From Candidatus Gastranaerophilales bacterium (GTDB taxonomy: Bacteria; Cyanobacteriota; Vampirovibrionia; Gastranaerophilales; Gastranaerophilaceae), in contig CALUYY010000001.1 in the NCBI GenBank assembly GCA_944325155.1, forward strand, positions 124,001-188,000: a stretch of 64,000 nt of DNA. Reading direction: 5' to 3'. Under the pieces are notes generated by a model. It was not told where the DNA came from. It worked only from the letters and a program-made list of their open reading frames with translations, and ran no database searches. Shown one piece after another: positions 5,548 through 21,731 of this stretch; the stretch's first letter is position 1; every line of letters starts with the position of its first letter. The position numbers were made by a program, and so were the translations under genes.

Positions 5548-8160
5548 ATGGATTTTATAAATTCTGTTATCGGATTTAAAGGCATTGAAAAAACAAAAAA
5601 TAAAGATATTAAGCCTAATGTACCCGTTAAAAGTAAACAAGATACATTTGAAAAAGAAACGGCGCAAGCATCCGGGACGGAATTAAAAACATATAAAGCA
5701 GCTCCGAAAACAAATATCAGGTTCGGCAAAAAGGAAGGATTTTGTTTGGGGGCGGGAATTGCTGCCGCTGCCGGAGTAATAGCGCTTTGTGTACAGGGGG
5801 CAAAAAACGGCAATTTTCAAAAAACAATAAGTTTATTAAAAGAAGAAATTTCAAGCAATAACCGCACAATAAGACATCTGCAGGATGAAATAAACGGTTT
5901 AAGCGAAGAAAGAAGCATACAGGATGAAACGGTAAATGAACTTGTAGTCAAGTTAAGCGGCTTAAGAACCAGACTTGAAGATATTGCGGCGGAAAATCAA
6001 AATTCGGGTATAAAAACGGATTTTACGGAACAATACAGAGAAATGATAAAAAAAGCCGGATTAAATTATGACCCGATATCAGACGCACCGAAGCAAACAA
6101 AAGAAAGCAAAAAAATATTTAATTTAATATTCAGAAAAATTGATGCACCCGACAGCTCAAAAAAACCCGATGAATACACAAAAGGTTTAATTTCAAGACT
6201 CAAATCGGGGGAAGATATAATTATTCCGCAGGCAAAAAAATCAAACACAAGAGAAGATATAATAAAAGCAAGCCTTGAAAGCACGGATTCAAGCTTATTT
6301 AAAATAGGACAATATGAGCCTGCGGCAATGAAATTAAATTACGGAAAAAGAACAAACTGGTCAAATGAAAAAATTTCAAGAGATATTATGCAGAATTTTT
6401 ACGATGCAAATAACCATACACTTGATGGTGTCGGTGTTGCAATCAAAAGTGTCAACGGCGGATATAAAGTAAGAATAACGGGTAACGGAGTATATAATTG
6501 CGCAGAAATGCTTGAATTAGGCTCCGGAAGCAAACTTGCCCAAAGTCCGTATAATGCGGGCGGCTTTGGAGAAGGCTCAAGAATTGTTGTCGCAAACCTT
6601 TTGGGACAGGGAAAAACAAGCGCCGTGCGCTACGGAAGCGCAGACTGGCAAATTGAATTTGCACCGAAAGGCGGCTCAATCGTAAGAAAAATTGAAAAAA
6701 CGGATAACCCCTCAGACGGCAATTTTATGGAATTTACGACAAATGACCAAGGGTTAGTCGAAACACTTTTAAAATCAATAAATTATTTTAAAAATTCAAA
6801 CAACCCCGATTTTAGTGATTTAACATACGAAAGTAAAGATTTTGCATTTAGAATTTTATCCCCGGGAGAAAAAGGCAATCTTTATTTAACGCAAAGATTT
6901 GAATGCAGGGCGGCAGACAGCTGGGATGAATCTTGCGAAGGATTAAATTTAATCTTTAACAGAAAACCCGACAGCGAAGAATTTAAAAACCTGACGGGAA
7001 AACTTTTCCGGACGGGACGAGACAGAGCATATCTTACAACGGACGATATATACGATTTAACAAGATATTTTTGTAAAGATATGTCCGATGAAGAACTTTT
7101 AACATCTGTAATTAAAACGCAAAATTTCTGGTCCGAGGCAAGAACGCCGTTTAAAGAAGATGAAATTAAAGCATTTATGAAATCGCTTATAAAAACGGCA
7201 CAGGAAAGAGGCTTAAGCATTGATTTCAAAGAAGCAAAATTATGCGAAGCAACAAGATATATAAGCGATGATGTCAAAAAATATTTGCAAAGCGAAGGAT
7301 ATACATTTGTTGACCCTTCTCTTGAGCTGTCAAAAATAGGACTTCAAACATCATCTCAGGTGTTAGACATTTTATCGGCGCACACACCTCTGAAACCAAC
7401 GCAAAGAGAAATTCAAAGACTGAATATTCTTGAAAAAGCAACGGAGGCAATACAGGAAGGATTGCAAAATTCATACGCCGTAAAATTCAAAAAATATTTT
7501 GAAGAAGCAAAACCTTTTATAACATTTGATAATGATATATCATGCAGAATATTAATCGGAAAATTAAAAAAATCAGGCTTATTTAACAATGACGCATTTT
7601 TGAAAAAATATGAAAATGCAGACATGGTAAGCAAAGAAGAAATAATGGAATTTACGCATGATTTTACGGACTTTTTATCGAGAAATTCCAAAGAATCAAG
7701 TTTAAATGACGAAGAAGGAATAAGGACGCTTGCGGAAATTTTAAAAACCTGCATAAGAAACAAAGAAGGCAGAGAAAAAGAATTCTTGAAATTGATGGAA
7801 AATTTAAGCGGTATACAAACAATTTCAAAAAGTGATATTAAAAAGCCGAGATTTGTCTTTGACAGAAAGAAAGAATTTTCAACAACAACTTTGGGTGAAG
7901 CCATAATTGATGAAAAAATTAACGGCGACAGACAATATATGGGACATTGGGTAGACAGAAGCTATCTTAACGAAGGAAGCTTTTACGAGCTTGTTGCAAC
8001 ATGGCTTCATGAAATAACACATAAATCGGGAGGCGACGGCACAAGTGCATTTACATACAAATTAACCGACTTAATAGAACAATTAACGGAAGCCGTGTCA
8101 TCAAACGAAACAACAAGATTGAAACTTTCCGCACTTGAAAAAGTATTTAACGAAACATAA
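5548..8160 (+). CDS. GHKL-like ATPase and HExxH zincin fusion, membrane-anchored (function unknown)
   Basis: 870 residues. Order of parts: an N-terminal Phe-x-Gly motif (GFKG, residues 9-12); a second FGKK at about 51; one hydrophobic helix around 58-78; a coiled coil at about 85-150; a region resembling a GHKL (Hsp90/MutL/histidine kinase) ATP-binding fold at about 260-420; a helical middle; and a zinc-metalloprotease motif H821-E-I-T-H825 near the C-terminus. In the GHKL-like part, DIMQNFYDAN fits the N box (Asn283, Asp286) and GGFGEG (338-343) fits the G2 box. The G1 box appears as ITGNGV, where the usual Asp is not evident, so ATP hydrolysis is uncertain. After the HExxH there is a Ser/Gly stretch and a helix, but the third zinc ligand is not obvious. 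I do not recognise a named family. Monocistronic; rpoB follows after 224 bases. Confidence 0.7.
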   Translation: MDFINSVIGFKGIEKTKNKDIKPNVPVKSKQDTFEKETAQASGTELKTYKAAPKTNIRFGKKEGFCLGAGIAAAAGVIALCVQGAKNGNFQKTISLLKEEISSNNRTIRHLQDEINGLSEERSIQDETVNELVVKLSGLRTRLEDIAAENQNSGIKTDFTEQYREMIKKAGLNYDPISDAPKQTKESKKIFNLIFRKIDAPDSSKKPDEYTKGLISRLKSGEDIIIPQAKKSNTREDIIKASLESTDSSLFKIGQYEPAAMKLNYGKRTNWSNEKISRDIMQNFYDANNHTLDGVGVAIKSVNGGYKVRITGNGVYNCAEMLELGSGSKLAQSPYNAGGFGEGSRIVVANLLGQGKTSAVRYGSADWQIEFAPKGGSIVRKIEKTDNPSDGNFMEFTTNDQGLVETLLKSINYFKNSNNPDFSDLTYESKDFAFRILSPGEKGNLYLTQRFECRAADSWDESCEGLNLIFNRKPDSEEFKNLTGKLFRTGRDRAYLTTDDIYDLTRYFCKDMSDEELLTSVIKTQNFWSEARTPFKEDEIKAFMKSLIKTAQERGLSIDFKEAKLCEATRYISDDVKKYLQSEGYTFVDPSLELSKIGLQTSSQVLDILSAHTPLKPTQREIQRLNILEKATEAIQEGLQNSYAVKFKKYFEEAKPFITFDNDISCRILIGKLKKSGLFNNDAFLKKYENADMVSKEEIMEFTHDFTDFLSRNSKESSLNDEEGIRTLAEILKTCIRNKEGREKEFLKLMENLSGIQTISKSDIKKPRFVFDRKKEFSTTTLGEAIIDEKINGDRQYMGHWVDRSYLNEGSFYELVATWLHEITHKSGGDGTSAFTYKLTDLIEQLTEAVSSNETTRLKLSALEKVFNET

Positions 8161-11770: not shown

Positions 11771-13483
11771 TTGTCTACTAGCATAGATTATTTTGATTAT
11801 ATACGAATTTCAATAGCATCTTCGGAAAGAGTATTGAAATGGTCATACGGGGAAGTTACAAAACCCGAAACAATCAACTATCGTACATTAAAACCCGAAA
11901 GAGACGGGCTGTTTTGCGAAAGAATTTTCGGACCTTCAAAAGACTGGGAATGCTATTGCGGTAAATATAAAAGAGTCCGCCACAAAGGTATTATATGCGA
12001 ACGCTGCGGTGTTGAAGTAACGGATTCAAAAGTCCGCCGCCACAGAATGGGGCATATTAAACTTGCGGCTCCCGTTTCGCACATCTGGTTTTTAAAGGGC
12101 ATTCCTTCATATTTGGGCTTATTATTGGATATGACCTTAAAAGATTTGGAACAGGTTATTTATTTTAACAACTACGTTGTTGTTGACCCCGGCGAATCTG
12201 AATTTAAAAAACTTCAATTATTAACCGAAGAAGAATATGAAGATTATGTATTGGAACATGAAGACACGACATTAAAAGTCGGTATCGGCGCCGAAGTAAT
12301 CAAAGAGTTGTTATCCGAAATTACTTTAACAAAACTTGCCGAAGACATCAGAACGGAATTGGATTCGGCGGGCGGTTCGGTTCAAAAAAGAGCGAAACTC
12401 ATTAAACGTTTAAGACTTGTTGAATCGTTAATAGATTCAAACACTGAACCCACATGGTTTATTATGGATGTTCTTCCCGTAACCCCGCCCGATTTAAGAC
12501 CTATGGTTCAATTGGACGGCGGACGTTTTGCAACATCAGACTTAAACGACTTATACAGACGTGTTATCAACAGAAACAACCGTCTTGCAAGATTGTTGGA
12601 AATGGGCGCACCAGAAATTATCGTGAGAAACGAAAAAAGAATGCTTCAGGAAGCCGTTGACGCACTTATTGACAACGGCAGAAGAGGCAGAACGGTTGTA
12701 GGACCCAATTCAAGACCGTTAAAATCGTTATCAAACATTATTGAAGGCAAACAGGGTCGTTTCCGTCAAAACTTATTGGGTAAACGTGTTGACTACTCCG
12801 GTCGTTCCGTTATCGTTGTAGGTCCGCAATTAAGCTTAAATCAGTGCGGCTTGCCCAAAGAAATGGCTATTGAATTATTCAAACCCTTTGTTGTTAACAA
12901 ATTAATCGAAAGAGGTTTGGTTCAAAACATTAAATCAGCCAAAAAGAAAATCGAAAGGTCGGAACCCGTTGTATGGGACATACTGGAAGAAGTCGTAGAA
13001 GGACACCCCGTTATGTTAAACCGTGCTCCTACGCTTCACAGACTCGGTATTCAAGCCTTTGAACCCAAACTTGTTGAAGGCAGAGCAATTCAATTACATC
13101 CTCTTGTATGTACCGCATTTAACGCCGACTTCGACGGCGACCAAATGGCGGTTCACGTTCCCCTGTCAATTGAGGCTCAAACCGAAGCAAGAATGCTTAT
13201 GCTTGCAACGAATAATATTCTGGCTCCCGCAAACGGTAAGCCGATTATTACTCCGACACAAGACATGGTCTTGGGTATTTACTATTTAACAATTCTGAAA
13301 GACCCCGATGCACCCGTTAAAGGCTATTTCCATGACTTTATGGACGCAATTTCGGCTTTGGAATTGGGCAAAATCAAACTTCACGATAAAATTATCGTAA
13401 GGGATGATAAGGGCGAAAGAATAGAAACCACGGCAGGAAGAATTGTATTTAACGAAACTTTAAGAAAATCGGTTCTTCAATAA
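11771..13483 (+). CDS. rpoC1: RNA polymerase gamma subunit (N-terminal half of beta')
   Basis: 570 residues from a TTG start with a strong AAAGGAG upstream. It corresponds to the N-terminal half of bacterial beta' and holds the catalytic magnesium site NADFDGD at residues 451-457. The N-terminal zinc-binding Cys (61, 63, 76, 79) are present in CYCG...CERCG. The protein ends after a GRIVFNETL segment, the place where cyanobacterial RpoC1 ends. A separate rpoC2 with its own ATG follows after 32 bases. A split beta' is characteristic of the cyanobacterial lineage and chloroplasts, so this is an ancestral gene fission and not a frameshift. It is slightly shorter than photosynthetic cyanobacterial RpoC1 (about 620). 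Confidence 0.98.
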
Positions 13484-13515
13484 TTAAGTTAAATAAAAAG
13501 AGGGAAATATAAAAA

Positions 13516-16500
13516 ATGACAACATTAACTCCTGAAAAAAAGAAAAAAACGATTGAATATATAAATAATATCGTGGATAAAAAAGGCTTAAACAAGTTAT
13601 TATCCCAAATATATCTTGAATGGGGCGGCGCAAAAACCGCAGAACTTGCAAACAACCTTAAAAACCTCGGTTATAAATATGCGACAAAAGCGGGCACCAC
13701 AATTTCAATTCACGACCTGTCGGTTCCCGAAGTTAAAAATGACCTTTTAAAACAAGCTCAGGAAGAAATCGAACAATCAACATACCGTTATATGAAAGGC
13801 GAAATAACGGAAGTTGAAAGATATACAAAAGTTATCGACACATGGTCAGAAACAACGGCAAAATTAACGGATGAAGTTGTTAAAAACTTTGATAAATTAA
13901 ACCCCGTTTATATGATGGCATTCTCCGGCGCAAGAGGTAACTTATCACAGGTATCACAGCTGGTCGGTATGCGCGGTTTGATGGCTGACGCACAAGGCCA
14001 GATTATCGACTTGCCGATTAAATCAAACTTTAAAGAAGGCCTTTCCTGTACCGAATACGTTATCTCCAGTTACGGCGCACGTAAAGGGCTTGTAGACACG
14101 GCTTTAAAAACAGCTGACTCAGGATACTTAACAAGACGTCTTGTTGACGTTGCACAGGATGTTATCATAAGAGAAGCAGACTGCCACACGGAAAAATCAA
14201 TCAAATTAACCGCAATTCAAGACGGCGAAAACATCATTGTTCCTTTGGCAGACAGGCTTTTGGGAAGAACCGTTGCACAGGATATTTTTGACAATGAAGG
14301 CAATTTAATCGTTGCAAAAAATACAACCGTTAACAGAGATGATCTGGCCAAAATTAAAGCCTTAAATCTTCAGGAAGTCGATGTAAGATCAACATTAACC
14401 TGCGAACTTGAATACGGCATTTGCCAAAAATGCTACGGCTGGGCAATGACAACCCAAAAACTCGTTGATATAGGTGAAGCAATCGGTATTATTGCGGCCC
14501 AGTCAATCGGTGAACCCGGTACACAGCTTACAATGAGAACATTCCACACGGGCGGTGTATTTAAAGGCGCAGGCGCCATGAAACATGTTACCGCTCCTTT
14601 TGACGGCGTTATTGAAGATGAAGTAAGAACACGTGAAATGAGAACCCGCCACGGTGATATCGTACAAATCGCAATTAAAGAAGCGGACGTTACGATTAAA
14701 AACGAAAAAGGAATGTCGGTTAAACTCCATATTCCTATGGGCGCAAGAGTTTCTTATATTAAAGGGCAGATGCTCAAAAAAGGGGACGAAGTTGCCGAAT
14801 ACGAACCCGTATCAAAGGGCGATGGCAGCCGTTTAACCGAAAAAGCCACAAAAGATATAACATCCGATATTGCAGGCGAAGTCGTGTTTGAAGATTTTAT
14901 AGCGGATGAAAAGAAAGACAGACAAGGCAACATCTCAAGAACTTCAAACAAATCCGGTATTGTCTGGGTTTTGGGCGGTGATGTTTACACGCTTCCCGCA
15001 GGTTCAAAAATCCTTGTGTCAGACGGCCAAAAAGTTAAAAAAGGCGAAAAACTTGCCGAAACTTTAATTGTGTCCGAACACGGCGGCGAAGTAAGGGTTA
15101 ATAATTCGCTTGAAATTGAAGAAGTTAAATTTGAAGGCAAGAAAATCAAAAAAATTGTTGCGGGCAAAGAATTAACAATTGTTATCGCTTCAATTCAGCC
15201 TTCAAACGCAACATTTGAACAAACCAAAAAAGAACAAATCTGGCACGTTAATTCAACGGATGAAAAATATATCGTTAAATGCCCGATTGACACAACCGTT
15301 GAAAACGGCATGATAATTGCGGAACTTATTGATGATGAACACAAAGTAACAAGCTCCGGCGAAATCAGATACAACGGCATTGAAGTCGGCGAAAATCAAG
15401 TTGTTACAAAAGGCGGTGAAGTAATATTCATCCCCGAAGAAATTCACCAGATTTCAAAAGATTCATCATTAAAACTCGTTGAATCAGGTACCTATGTTGA
15501 AGCGGGAACCGAAGTTGTTAAAGACTTGTACACCCACATTGACGGTATCGTTGAAATTAAAGAATTTAACGATATAATCCATGAAGTTGTCGTACGTCCG
15601 GGCGAATTATACACTCTTGATTCAATCAACGACTTAAAAGTTGATGAAAACGAAGTTATAAGAGCAGGCACGGTTGTTGCGGGTAAAATTAAAGCCAAAG
15701 TTGATTCAATCGTTACAATCGTTGAAAATGATTCCGATATGCTTGAATTGGACGATTTGGACGAAGATATAGCGGAAGATATCGTTGATGAAGATAATCT
15801 TGATAAACAACAGGTTCAAATCTTAATCAGACCGGTTCAAAGCTTCACAATCGAACCCAAAGACGTTTCAATCGAATTTGAAACAACCGATGAAGCAATT
15901 GAAATTGTTCCTTTGACACAATTGCAATTCAAAGACGGTGCAAGAGTAAGAAGCTTGGACGGCGCCGTTCTTACAAGAACAAGCCTTGTGTTATCAATGA
16001 ACGGCTATTTAAGCCACTTAAAAGGTCTTGTTGAACTTGATAAAGACGGCGGATTAAAAATCGTCGTATTGGAAACACTAATCGTAAGACGTGAACAAGA
16101 CGACGCTTCAAGAAGCTTATCTTCAATGCAGACTGAATTGCTGGTTGAAAACGGTCAAATAATAGAACCCAGAACCCCCGTTACAAAAACGCAGGTGCTG
16201 TCAATCGACGATTCAATCGCAAGTATCAAACAAACAGATAAAGACCTAAGAAGGCTTCTTCTTGTATCGGCTAAAAACGAACAGGTTATCCAAATTAAAG
16301 GCAAGCCCACCGTTAAAGCCGGCGATTTTGTCAAACTTGACGCCGTTGTATCAACCGAAGGCGACACGACAAAATGCTCCGGAAGAGTTATTGAAGTTGA
16401 TAAAAATTCAGTAACGGTAAGAATGGGAAGACCTCACTTAATAAGCCCCGGCACACTGTTACAGGTTGAAAATAACGCACTTATATTAAGAGGCGATCTT

Positions 16501-17367
16501 CTTGCAACACTCGTATTTGAAAGACAAAAAACGGGCGACATCGTTCAAGGTTTGCCGAGGGTTGAAGAACTTCTTGAAGCAAGAAAACCGAAAGATTCGG
16601 CAATTGTTGCCGAAGAAGACGGCGTAGCCGAAATTGAAATCGAAGACGACGTTGCAAGATTATACATAGTAAACGAAAACGGCAGAACGGAAATTAAATA
16701 TCCGATTGAATCAAGCATAATCGTTTCCGACAAACAAAAAATAACAAAAGGACAAGCTTTAACTTCAGGTCCCTTAAACCCGCATGACGTTATCAGATTA
16801 AGAGGCGCCAATGCCGCTCAGCAATATCTTGTTGATGAAGTTCAAAGGGTATACCGCTCACAAGGCGTTGAAATTGCCGATAAACACGTTGAAGTTATCG
16901 TACGTCAGATGATTAAAAAAGTTAAAGTCGTTGACTCCGGCACGACAAAGCTTCTCCCCGGAGAACTTGTCGAACTTAAGACGGTTGAAGCGGAAAACGC
17001 TAAAATCAACGAAGAAGAAGGCGGAATTAAAGCAACATATGAAGCTTTACTGTTGGGTATTACAAAAGCTTCATTAAATACGGAAAGCTTTATCTCGGCC
17101 GCTTCCTTCCAGGAAACAACAAGAATTTTGACGGAAGCCGCAGTCGAAGGCAAAAAGGATATGTTAAGAGGCTTAAAAGAAAACGTTATTATAGGCCGCT
17201 TAATTCCCGCAGGCACAGGCTATCATCACCTGATTAACGCAAGCGAAGAAAAAGAAAAAGAAGCCCTTCGCCGTGCACAGCAAAAAAATCAGGCAAGAAA
17301 ACCTTCCGCAATTCTTGAAGAAATTGAAGGAATGTTCGGAACACCCGATTTTACAATTGATGAATAA
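13516..17367 (+). CDS. rpoC2: RNA polymerase beta' subunit, C-terminal half
   Basis: 1283 residues. The N-terminal part has the bridge helix and trigger-loop region (MRGLMADAQGQIIDLPI, then ARKGLVDTALKTADSGYLTRR), and the second zinc site is seen as CELEYGICQKC near residue 295-305. A long strand-rich middle, roughly residues 370-1000, corresponds to the sandwich-barrel hybrid motif insertion (SI3) found in the cyanobacterial trigger loop. It is rich in repeated hydrophobic/acidic strands with short turns. The C-terminus returns to conserved clamp sequence (GDIVQGLPRVEELLEARKP and FQETTRILTEAAVEGKKD). Translated from ATG with GAGGG upstream. Last gene of the operon; a small CCGAA/TTCGG hairpin lies just downstream at 17382-17394. 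Confidence 0.98.
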   Translation: MTTLTPEKKKKTIEYINNIVDKKGLNKLLSQIYLEWGGAKTAELANNLKNLGYKYATKAGTTISIHDLSVPEVKNDLLKQAQEEIEQSTYRYMKGEITEVERYTKVIDTWSETTAKLTDEVVKNFDKLNPVYMMAFSGARGNLSQVSQLVGMRGLMADAQGQIIDLPIKSNFKEGLSCTEYVISSYGARKGLVDTALKTADSGYLTRRLVDVAQDVIIREADCHTEKSIKLTAIQDGENIIVPLADRLLGRTVAQDIFDNEGNLIVAKNTTVNRDDLAKIKALNLQEVDVRSTLTCELEYGICQKCYGWAMTTQKLVDIGEAIGIIAAQSIGEPGTQLTMRTFHTGGVFKGAGAMKHVTAPFDGVIEDEVRTREMRTRHGDIVQIAIKEADVTIKNEKGMSVKLHIPMGARVSYIKGQMLKKGDEVAEYEPVSKGDGSRLTEKATKDITSDIAGEVVFEDFIADEKKDRQGNISRTSNKSGIVWVLGGDVYTLPAGSKILVSDGQKVKKGEKLAETLIVSEHGGEVRVNNSLEIEEVKFEGKKIKKIVAGKELTIVIASIQPSNATFEQTKKEQIWHVNSTDEKYIVKCPIDTTVENGMIIAELIDDEHKVTSSGEIRYNGIEVGENQVVTKGGEVIFIPEEIHQISKDSSLKLVESGTYVEAGTEVVKDLYTHIDGIVEIKEFNDIIHEVVVRPGELYTLDSINDLKVDENEVIRAGTVVAGKIKAKVDSIVTIVENDSDMLELDDLDEDIAEDIVDEDNLDKQQVQILIRPVQSFTIEPKDVSIEFETTDEAIEIVPLTQLQFKDGARVRSLDGAVLTRTSLVLSMNGYLSHLKGLVELDKDGGLKIVVLETLIVRREQDDASRSLSSMQTELLVENGQIIEPRTPVTKTQVLSIDDSIASIKQTDKDLRRLLLVSAKNEQVIQIKGKPTVKAGDFVKLDAVVSTEGDTTKCSGRVIEVDKNSVTVRMGRPHLISPGTLLQVENNALILRGDLLATLVFERQKTGDIVQGLPRVEELLEARKPKDSAIVAEEDGVAEIEIEDDVARLYIVNENGRTEIKYPIESSIIVSDKQKITKGQALTSGPLNPHDVIRLRGANAAQQYLVDEVQRVYRSQGVEIADKHVEVIVRQMIKKVKVVDSGTTKLLPGELVELKTVEAENAKINEEEGGIKATYEALLLGITKASLNTESFISAASFQETTRILTEAAVEGKKDMLRGLKENVIIGRLIPAGTGYHHLINASEEKEKEALRRAQQKNQARKPSAILEEIEGMFGTPDFTIDE

Positions 17368-21098: not shown

Positions 21099-21176
21099 AA
21101 TAAAAATTCTTAAATTCTGTATATTATTATGTTATAGTTTAATAAATTAATTTAAATTGTATAAAAGGACTAAGCT

Positions 21177-21731
21177 ATGTGGAATTTGTTGGTTGAAATA
21201 ATTTGTGCGTTTTTACCCAAGAAAAACAGATTTAATTATAATGCAAGACAATTTTTAAGACATATAACTTCATACATCCATATAAAAAGAAGAACAAAAT
21301 ATTCGGGCAAAAATATAAGATTAGGCGGGAAAGTTTATATAAATAAAAATACCGTAATAAATGATAATACAACAATGGGAAACCTCCGTGTTATTGGGGG
21401 GGGGGATTTTTCAATCGGCAAATATACAAGCATCGGCGAAGACTTGCTTGCAATAACGGGTAATCATAACTATGAAGGAGAAAAAATCCCGTTTGATGAA
21501 AAATGGATAGATAAAGGAGTTGAAATCGGAGAATATTGCTGGCTGGGCGCAAGAGTAACCCTGCTTCCCGGAACAAAAATAGGCGAAGGTGCGATAATTC
21601 AAGCGGGAGCCGTTGTCCACGGGATAATTCCCCCTTATTCAATTGCGGGCGGAAACCCTGCAAAAGTTTTTAAATACAGAGATAAAGAACATTTCTTAAA
21701 ATTAAAAGAAGAAAAGAAATTTTATTCATAA
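21177..21731 (+). CDS. Hexapeptide-repeat acyltransferase with an in-frame G10 tract
   Basis: 184 residues. It is a left-handed beta-helix (hexapeptide) acyltransferase: repeating [LIV]-G-x4 steps run from about residue 50 to 150 (IRLGGKVYI, FSIGKYTSIGED, VEIGEYCWLGARVTLLPG, TKIGEGAIIQAGAVV). The C-terminal IPPYSIAGGNPAKVFKYR is the usual end of maltose/galactoside O-acetyltransferase-like and LPS or capsule O-acyltransferases, which use acetyl-CoA. The candidate catalytic His is in the GNHNY segment near residue 100. A run of ten G (21396-21405) encodes part of VIGGGDF, and gain or loss of one base would truncate the protein. Its 3' end overlaps the convergent oxidoreductase by six bases. 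The acceptor is unknown; a cell-surface polysaccharide is likely. Confidence 0.8.
   Translation: MWNLLVEIICAFLPKKNRFNYNARQFLRHITSYIHIKRRTKYSGKNIRLGGKVYINKNTVINDNTTMGNLRVIGGGDFSIGKYTSIGEDLLAITGNHNYEGEKIPFDEKWIDKGVEIGEYCWLGARVTLLPGTKIGEGAIIQAGAVVHGIIPPYSIAGGNPAKVFKYRDKEHFLKLKEEKKFYS
21396..21405 (+). repeat. G10 homopolymer within the acyltransferase gene
   Basis: Ten consecutive G in an AT-rich genome, inside codons for Ile-Gly-Gly-Gly-Asp. Such tracts slip in replication and are known as phase-variation sites in surface-modification genes of other bacteria. As read here the frame is intact. Confidence 0.9.

Follow-up and report, generated by a model that had tools for sequence, protein, structure and literature searches.

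A run of ten guanines inside a gene for a hexapeptide O-acyltransferase, carried by an uncultured gut member of the Gastranaerophilales, is probably a replication-slippage frame switch, or simple-sequence contingency locus. Its genome has five long G tracts, this one included, that would together switch the acylation and glycosylation of cell-surface sugars. The tract lies in a 64-kb stretch of DNA (the window, meaning the whole stretch analysed) from contig C1 of a draft assembly that totals 1.88 Mb in 23 contigs. A tract of ten Gs, or equally of seven or thirteen, would allow the full enzyme to be made, while one of nine or eleven would end the protein at 92–95 residues, before the catalytic histidine. 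Three features of the sequences support such a switch: the placement of the other long tracts in surface-glycan genes, the presence of a tract at matching codons in two other genera, and the mixture of reading frames among the tract-bearing prepilin genes of the family. The same three features favor the original prediction that the gene is a phase-variation candidate, and on this evidence we rate the acyltransferase locus a good one, with somewhat better than even confidence. The strongest doubt, which weighs on the switch and on the prediction alike, is that all four tracts found at this site are in frame. We infer that the tract slips in cells and that the outcome may be a role such as altered phage or host recognition.

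The elements of the gene on which the argument turns are as follows.

21165–21169, forward strand: AAGGA, a likely ribosome-binding site as read from the sequence, 7 bases before the ATG.
21177–21731, forward strand: gene for a hexapeptide (left-handed beta-helix) acyltransferase of 184 residues, in frame (ON) as assembled.
21361–21363, forward strand: internal ATG from which, with a tract of eleven Gs, the C-terminal part (123 residues) would be read.
21396–21405, forward strand: G10 homopolymeric tract, forming codons 74–76 and the first base of codon 77 (Gly-Gly-Gly-Asp).
21462–21473, forward strand: codons of the NHNY motif, 3′ of the tract, including the invariant His97 (candidate catalytic base) of a ten-homologue alignment.

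That the run sits within a hexapeptide acyltransferase gene, as had been proposed, is borne out by a Pfam match to Hexapep (PF00132, E 8.4e-14, 51 bits against a cut-off of 27). The nearest NCBIfam models are those of the LPS O-acetyltransferase WbbJ, Vat and WcaF, all of them far below cut-off, and the nearest solved structures by sequence are those of VatA (E 5e-15, residues 45–169), with chain 3jqy_B of a polysialic acid O-acetyltransferase matching at 2.7e-9. A structure predicted from ten sequences has high confidence (pLDDT 90) and resembles a beta-helix, its short strands following at regular intervals, and it places codons 74–76 in the turn between strands 70–73 and 78–80. In the alignment of ten homologues neither G74 nor the histidine of NHNY, H97, varies, and G76 is almost as constant. 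The conservation of the two glycines and the position of H97 together indicate that the tract codes for a glycine-requiring turn upstream of the probable catalytic histidine, and since a Gly-x-Gly turn is conserved at this site, a run of glycines would be tolerated there in the ON state.

The genes around the acyltransferase encode a LeuA-like synthase, a pyridine nucleotide-disulphide oxidoreductase, an RsmD-like methylase and two proteins without a Pfam match. These neighbors read as housekeeping genes, with no glycan cluster among them by Pfam, and the context therefore gives no pointer to the substrate of the enzyme. The enzyme may act on a surface polysaccharide, presumably using an acetyl donor. 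The gene family named in the original prediction is confirmed; because the gene sits among housekeeping genes, the word “surface” has to be taken as an inference.

The ten-base G run stands in an AT-rich context, as first described. No other G or C run in the 64-kb window reaches seven bases, the runner-up being six bases long. A first-order model computed with the tract left out predicts 0.02 G/C runs of at least ten bases in a window of this size and 0.6 in the whole 1.88-Mb genome; by this model the tract, which lies inside a gene, is well above chance length. For runs of at least twelve bases the expectation falls to 0.03 per genome, against four observed. When the tract length is varied in silico, a change of one unit toggles the full-length product, the 184 residues obtained with G10 becoming 92 with G9 and 95 with G11, and changes of two units likewise give 94 (G8) and 93 (G12). 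The G9 and G11 products end upstream of the invariant His97, which agrees with the earlier claim that one slipped base would truncate the enzyme before its active site. The internal ATG has no clear ribosome-binding site and is probably not used.

The most substantial alternative is that the tract is a passive by-product of a conserved Gly-x-Gly turn that happens to be coded by GGG, so that some background slippage may occur at a low level, selection keeps the frame, and there is no switch. The invariance of G74 and near-invariance of G76 fit such an origin, as do the several homologues in which a mixture of codons specifies Gly-Gly-Gly at the turn, and the conserved turn does raise the odds that a G run arises by chance at this position, which counts against the switch. 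What a passive origin explains poorly is the choice of three consecutive GGG codons and a following G, although GGG is the rarest glycine codon (44 of the 350 glycine codons counted in eleven genes of the window), and the fact that the other long tracts of the genome also lie in or beside surface-glycan genes. We regard this alternative as possible but rather unlikely; the in-frame state of all four tracts at the site, considered below, is a further observation in its favor.

A census of the whole genome with the pattern H-G9 returned five G tracts of at least nine bases, namely the G10 of the acyltransferase gene and four G12 tracts.

C6:5930: G12 at codon 365 of 369 in an Acyl_transf_3 gene (PF01757, 1e-28).
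C13:22754 (L266 6907–10049): G12 splitting an AlgX-like gene (PF16822, 3.7e-10) that adjoins an MBOAT gene (2.7e-35).
C16:15356: G12 after a glycan operon, some 20 bp beyond its final gene.
C17:15139: in-frame G12 within a Glyco_transf_56-like gene, at codon 315.

The four tracts that lie within genes are all in acyltransferase or glycosyltransferase-type genes (4/4), and the fifth is found just past a glycan operon. The chance of such a placement for the four is about 6e-6 if surface-glycan genes make up 5% of coding DNA, a figure that serves as a rough guide only because genes were assigned to classes in retrospect. As assembled, with G12, the AlgX-like gene is out of frame, whereas G11 would open it, so that this second acylation locus would be OFF; the pairing of AlgX-like and MBOAT proteins is known from O-acetylation loci. 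The Acyl_transf_3 gene closes a series of genes on one strand that looks like a polysaccharide operon, and its tract stands so near the 3′ end that a shift of frame would affect the C-terminus only. The tracts on C6 and C16 have similar flanks (aaaaacttaaaaatcctc-G12-taaaata) at the 3′ ends of two glycan clusters (L092, L094), and the two could represent a terminator-like or recombining element, or a dispersed repeat.

The first four homologues of the acyltransferase to be aligned lacked the tract. Across a wider search of 383 family genomes, with 29 family homologues examined, a G9 was found at the same codons in three, two of them from genus g57 (G106 and G317) and one from genus g8 (G147). 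The original prediction had held that a tract not conserved in orthologues would speak against it, and this is partly the case: 26 of the 29 family homologues are without the tract, while these three carry it as G9. A frame-blind pattern search gave six matches, comprising the same three, the genome of the window, and two more (G285 and G321) that look unrelated. Further tracts occur in frame one coil downstream in two other homologues.

L235 (Streptococcus suis 10581), 6150–6158: G9 in the next coil, in frame.
L231 (a Lachnospiraceae), 6151–6158: G8 in the next coil, in frame.

When these two are counted as bearing the tract, the gene tree requires four changes of tract label, at least three of them forced by supported branches, which implies that the tract arose more than once in the acyltransferase family, or was repeatedly lost. 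Repeated origin can mean selection for a switch, or it can mean that a Gly-x-Gly turn is simply a likely place for G runs. At the acyltransferase site itself the four tracts are all in frame, with no OFF allele in a sample that is small and draws two of its members from one genus, against one third in frame expected under free switching. The lengths concerned, G9 and G10, are at the short end of those seen.

Long tracts are unevenly spread among the relatives, whose genomes hold from no long G or C tract (G006 and G013) to 55 (G003), 91 (G030) and 115 (G017), and in many of them the tracts follow a start codon and precede the prepilin motif FTxAE. The corresponding pattern of tract, gap and motif occurs with G tracts in 26 of 117 family genomes and with C tracts in 8 of 117, and had no match in the controls. 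In G030 a tract lies within 400 bases upstream of 48 of the 55 prepilin motifs, where 1.1 are expected, and in G003 of 23 of 37, where 0.4 are expected. The gene sets are located as follows.

L126–L155 and L269–L344: prepilin genes with tracts in relatives G030, G017, G080, G107, G072, G104 and G003.

Ninety tract-bearing prepilin genes were read in 11 genomes, 26 of them in frame and 64 out of frame. In 89 of the 90 the frame of the motif is free of stops from the tract onward to the motif, and the complete downstream frames are mostly longer than 200 residues, so that the out-of-frame copies look intact apart from the tract. Of three ON products, two score above the cut-off for PF07963. With start codons picked by a simple ribosome-site rule, the in-frame share is 29%, statistically indistinguishable from one third (p 0.43) and consistent with what slippage would give. 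Tract lengths differ between paralogues within one genome, and in several genomes a single out-of-frame length predominates (G10 in 16 of 20 in G030, G12 in 9 of 11 in G080). The residues preceding the motif of type IV prepilins are removed by the prepilin peptidase, and the residues encoded by the tract belong to this leader part. The genome of the window has five prepilin motifs, none with a tract by the tract-gap-motif patterns; two motifs without any tract are seen in the window itself, at about 56841 and 57628. The bases preceding the tracts are specific to each genome, which had suggested one dispersed repeat element among the relatives; this idea was dropped, as the common flanks are prepilin leaders. 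In G104 the scaffolds have NN gaps inside tracts and in G003 contigs often start at them, which could reflect mixtures of tract lengths in the reads or just difficulty of assembly.

Taken at the level of the family, we consider it fairly likely that poly-G and poly-C tracts act as genome-wide surface frame switches, turning prepilins on and off in many species, with the tract-coded residues cleaved away with the leader, and acting in the genome of the window on sugar acylation and glycosylation genes instead. Two further explanations would remove the switch in the acyltransferase gene and are both very improbable for that tract. One is an error of sequencing or assembly, the true run being shorter or otherwise not G10: the assembly is a draft in 23 contigs, several sequencing chemistries struggle with long G runs, and the gaps and contig starts in G104 and G003 fit such trouble, but the tract lies inside a long contig with the reading frame intact on both sides, and similar tracts stand at the same codons in other assemblies. 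The other, programmed transcriptional or ribosomal slippage yielding a mix of full and truncated protein from a fixed DNA length, could account for one predominant out-of-frame prepilin length in several relatives, but would only lower output from an acyltransferase that is in frame as assembled, and fits poorly with prepilin tract lengths that vary among paralogues and an in-frame share close to one third.

Should the G10 tract slip, single cells of one gut lineage would differ in surface-sugar acylation. More broadly, the tract census, with up to about 115 tracts of at least nine bases in one family genome, suggests a large repertoire of contingency genes, much of it in prepilins, in an uncultured, non-photosynthetic sister group of the cyanobacteria. 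Of these findings, the set of prepilin genes is newer than the acyltransferase locus; no literature joining phase variation with the Gastranaerophilales or Melainabacteria was found, which is weak evidence of novelty in a search that covered a minority of subscription papers. As a separate observation, RNA polymerase beta′ appears at 11771–17367 of the window as two adjacent open reading frames of 570 and 1283 residues, an arrangement resembling the split rpoC1/rpoC2 of cyanobacteria.

Among known systems, the Vat streptogramin A acetyltransferases (PDB 6x3c) provide the closest solved structures by sequence (5e-15). The gene product scores 64.9 against the NCBIfam Vat cut-off of 300 bits, and its assignment as a Vat was accordingly rejected. 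The phase-variable O-acetyltransferase of the K1 capsule of Escherichia coli, NeuO, is also a hexapeptide-fold enzyme in which slippage of a repeat within the coding sequence switches the full-length frame, and changed phage and immune recognition through surface-sugar acylation has been reported for it (PMC13001214). In contrast to NeuO, which has heptanucleotide repeats at its 5′ end and is carried by phage CUS-3, the gene described here has a mononucleotide G10 in mid-gene, in a conserved turn of the beta-helix, at a chromosomal locus. Phase-variable acyltransferase-3 genes, including oafA of Haemophilus influenzae, give on/off O-acetylation of surface sugars (PMC9558356), and the present genome likewise has a G12 in an Acyl_transf_3 gene; their fold differs, however, from that of the hexapeptide acyltransferase, and the tract in the genome's own Acyl_transf_3 gene is at the extreme 3′ end. 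A further comparison is with lgtA and lgtC of Neisseria, poly-G contingency genes with high-frequency mutation in the tract (PMC3526765). Like them, the acyltransferase gene has its poly-G tract within what would be a surface-sugar gene, but lgtA and lgtC encode glycosyltransferases of a well-studied species, whereas the gene here encodes an acyltransferase of an uncultured gut lineage, known from assembled sequence.
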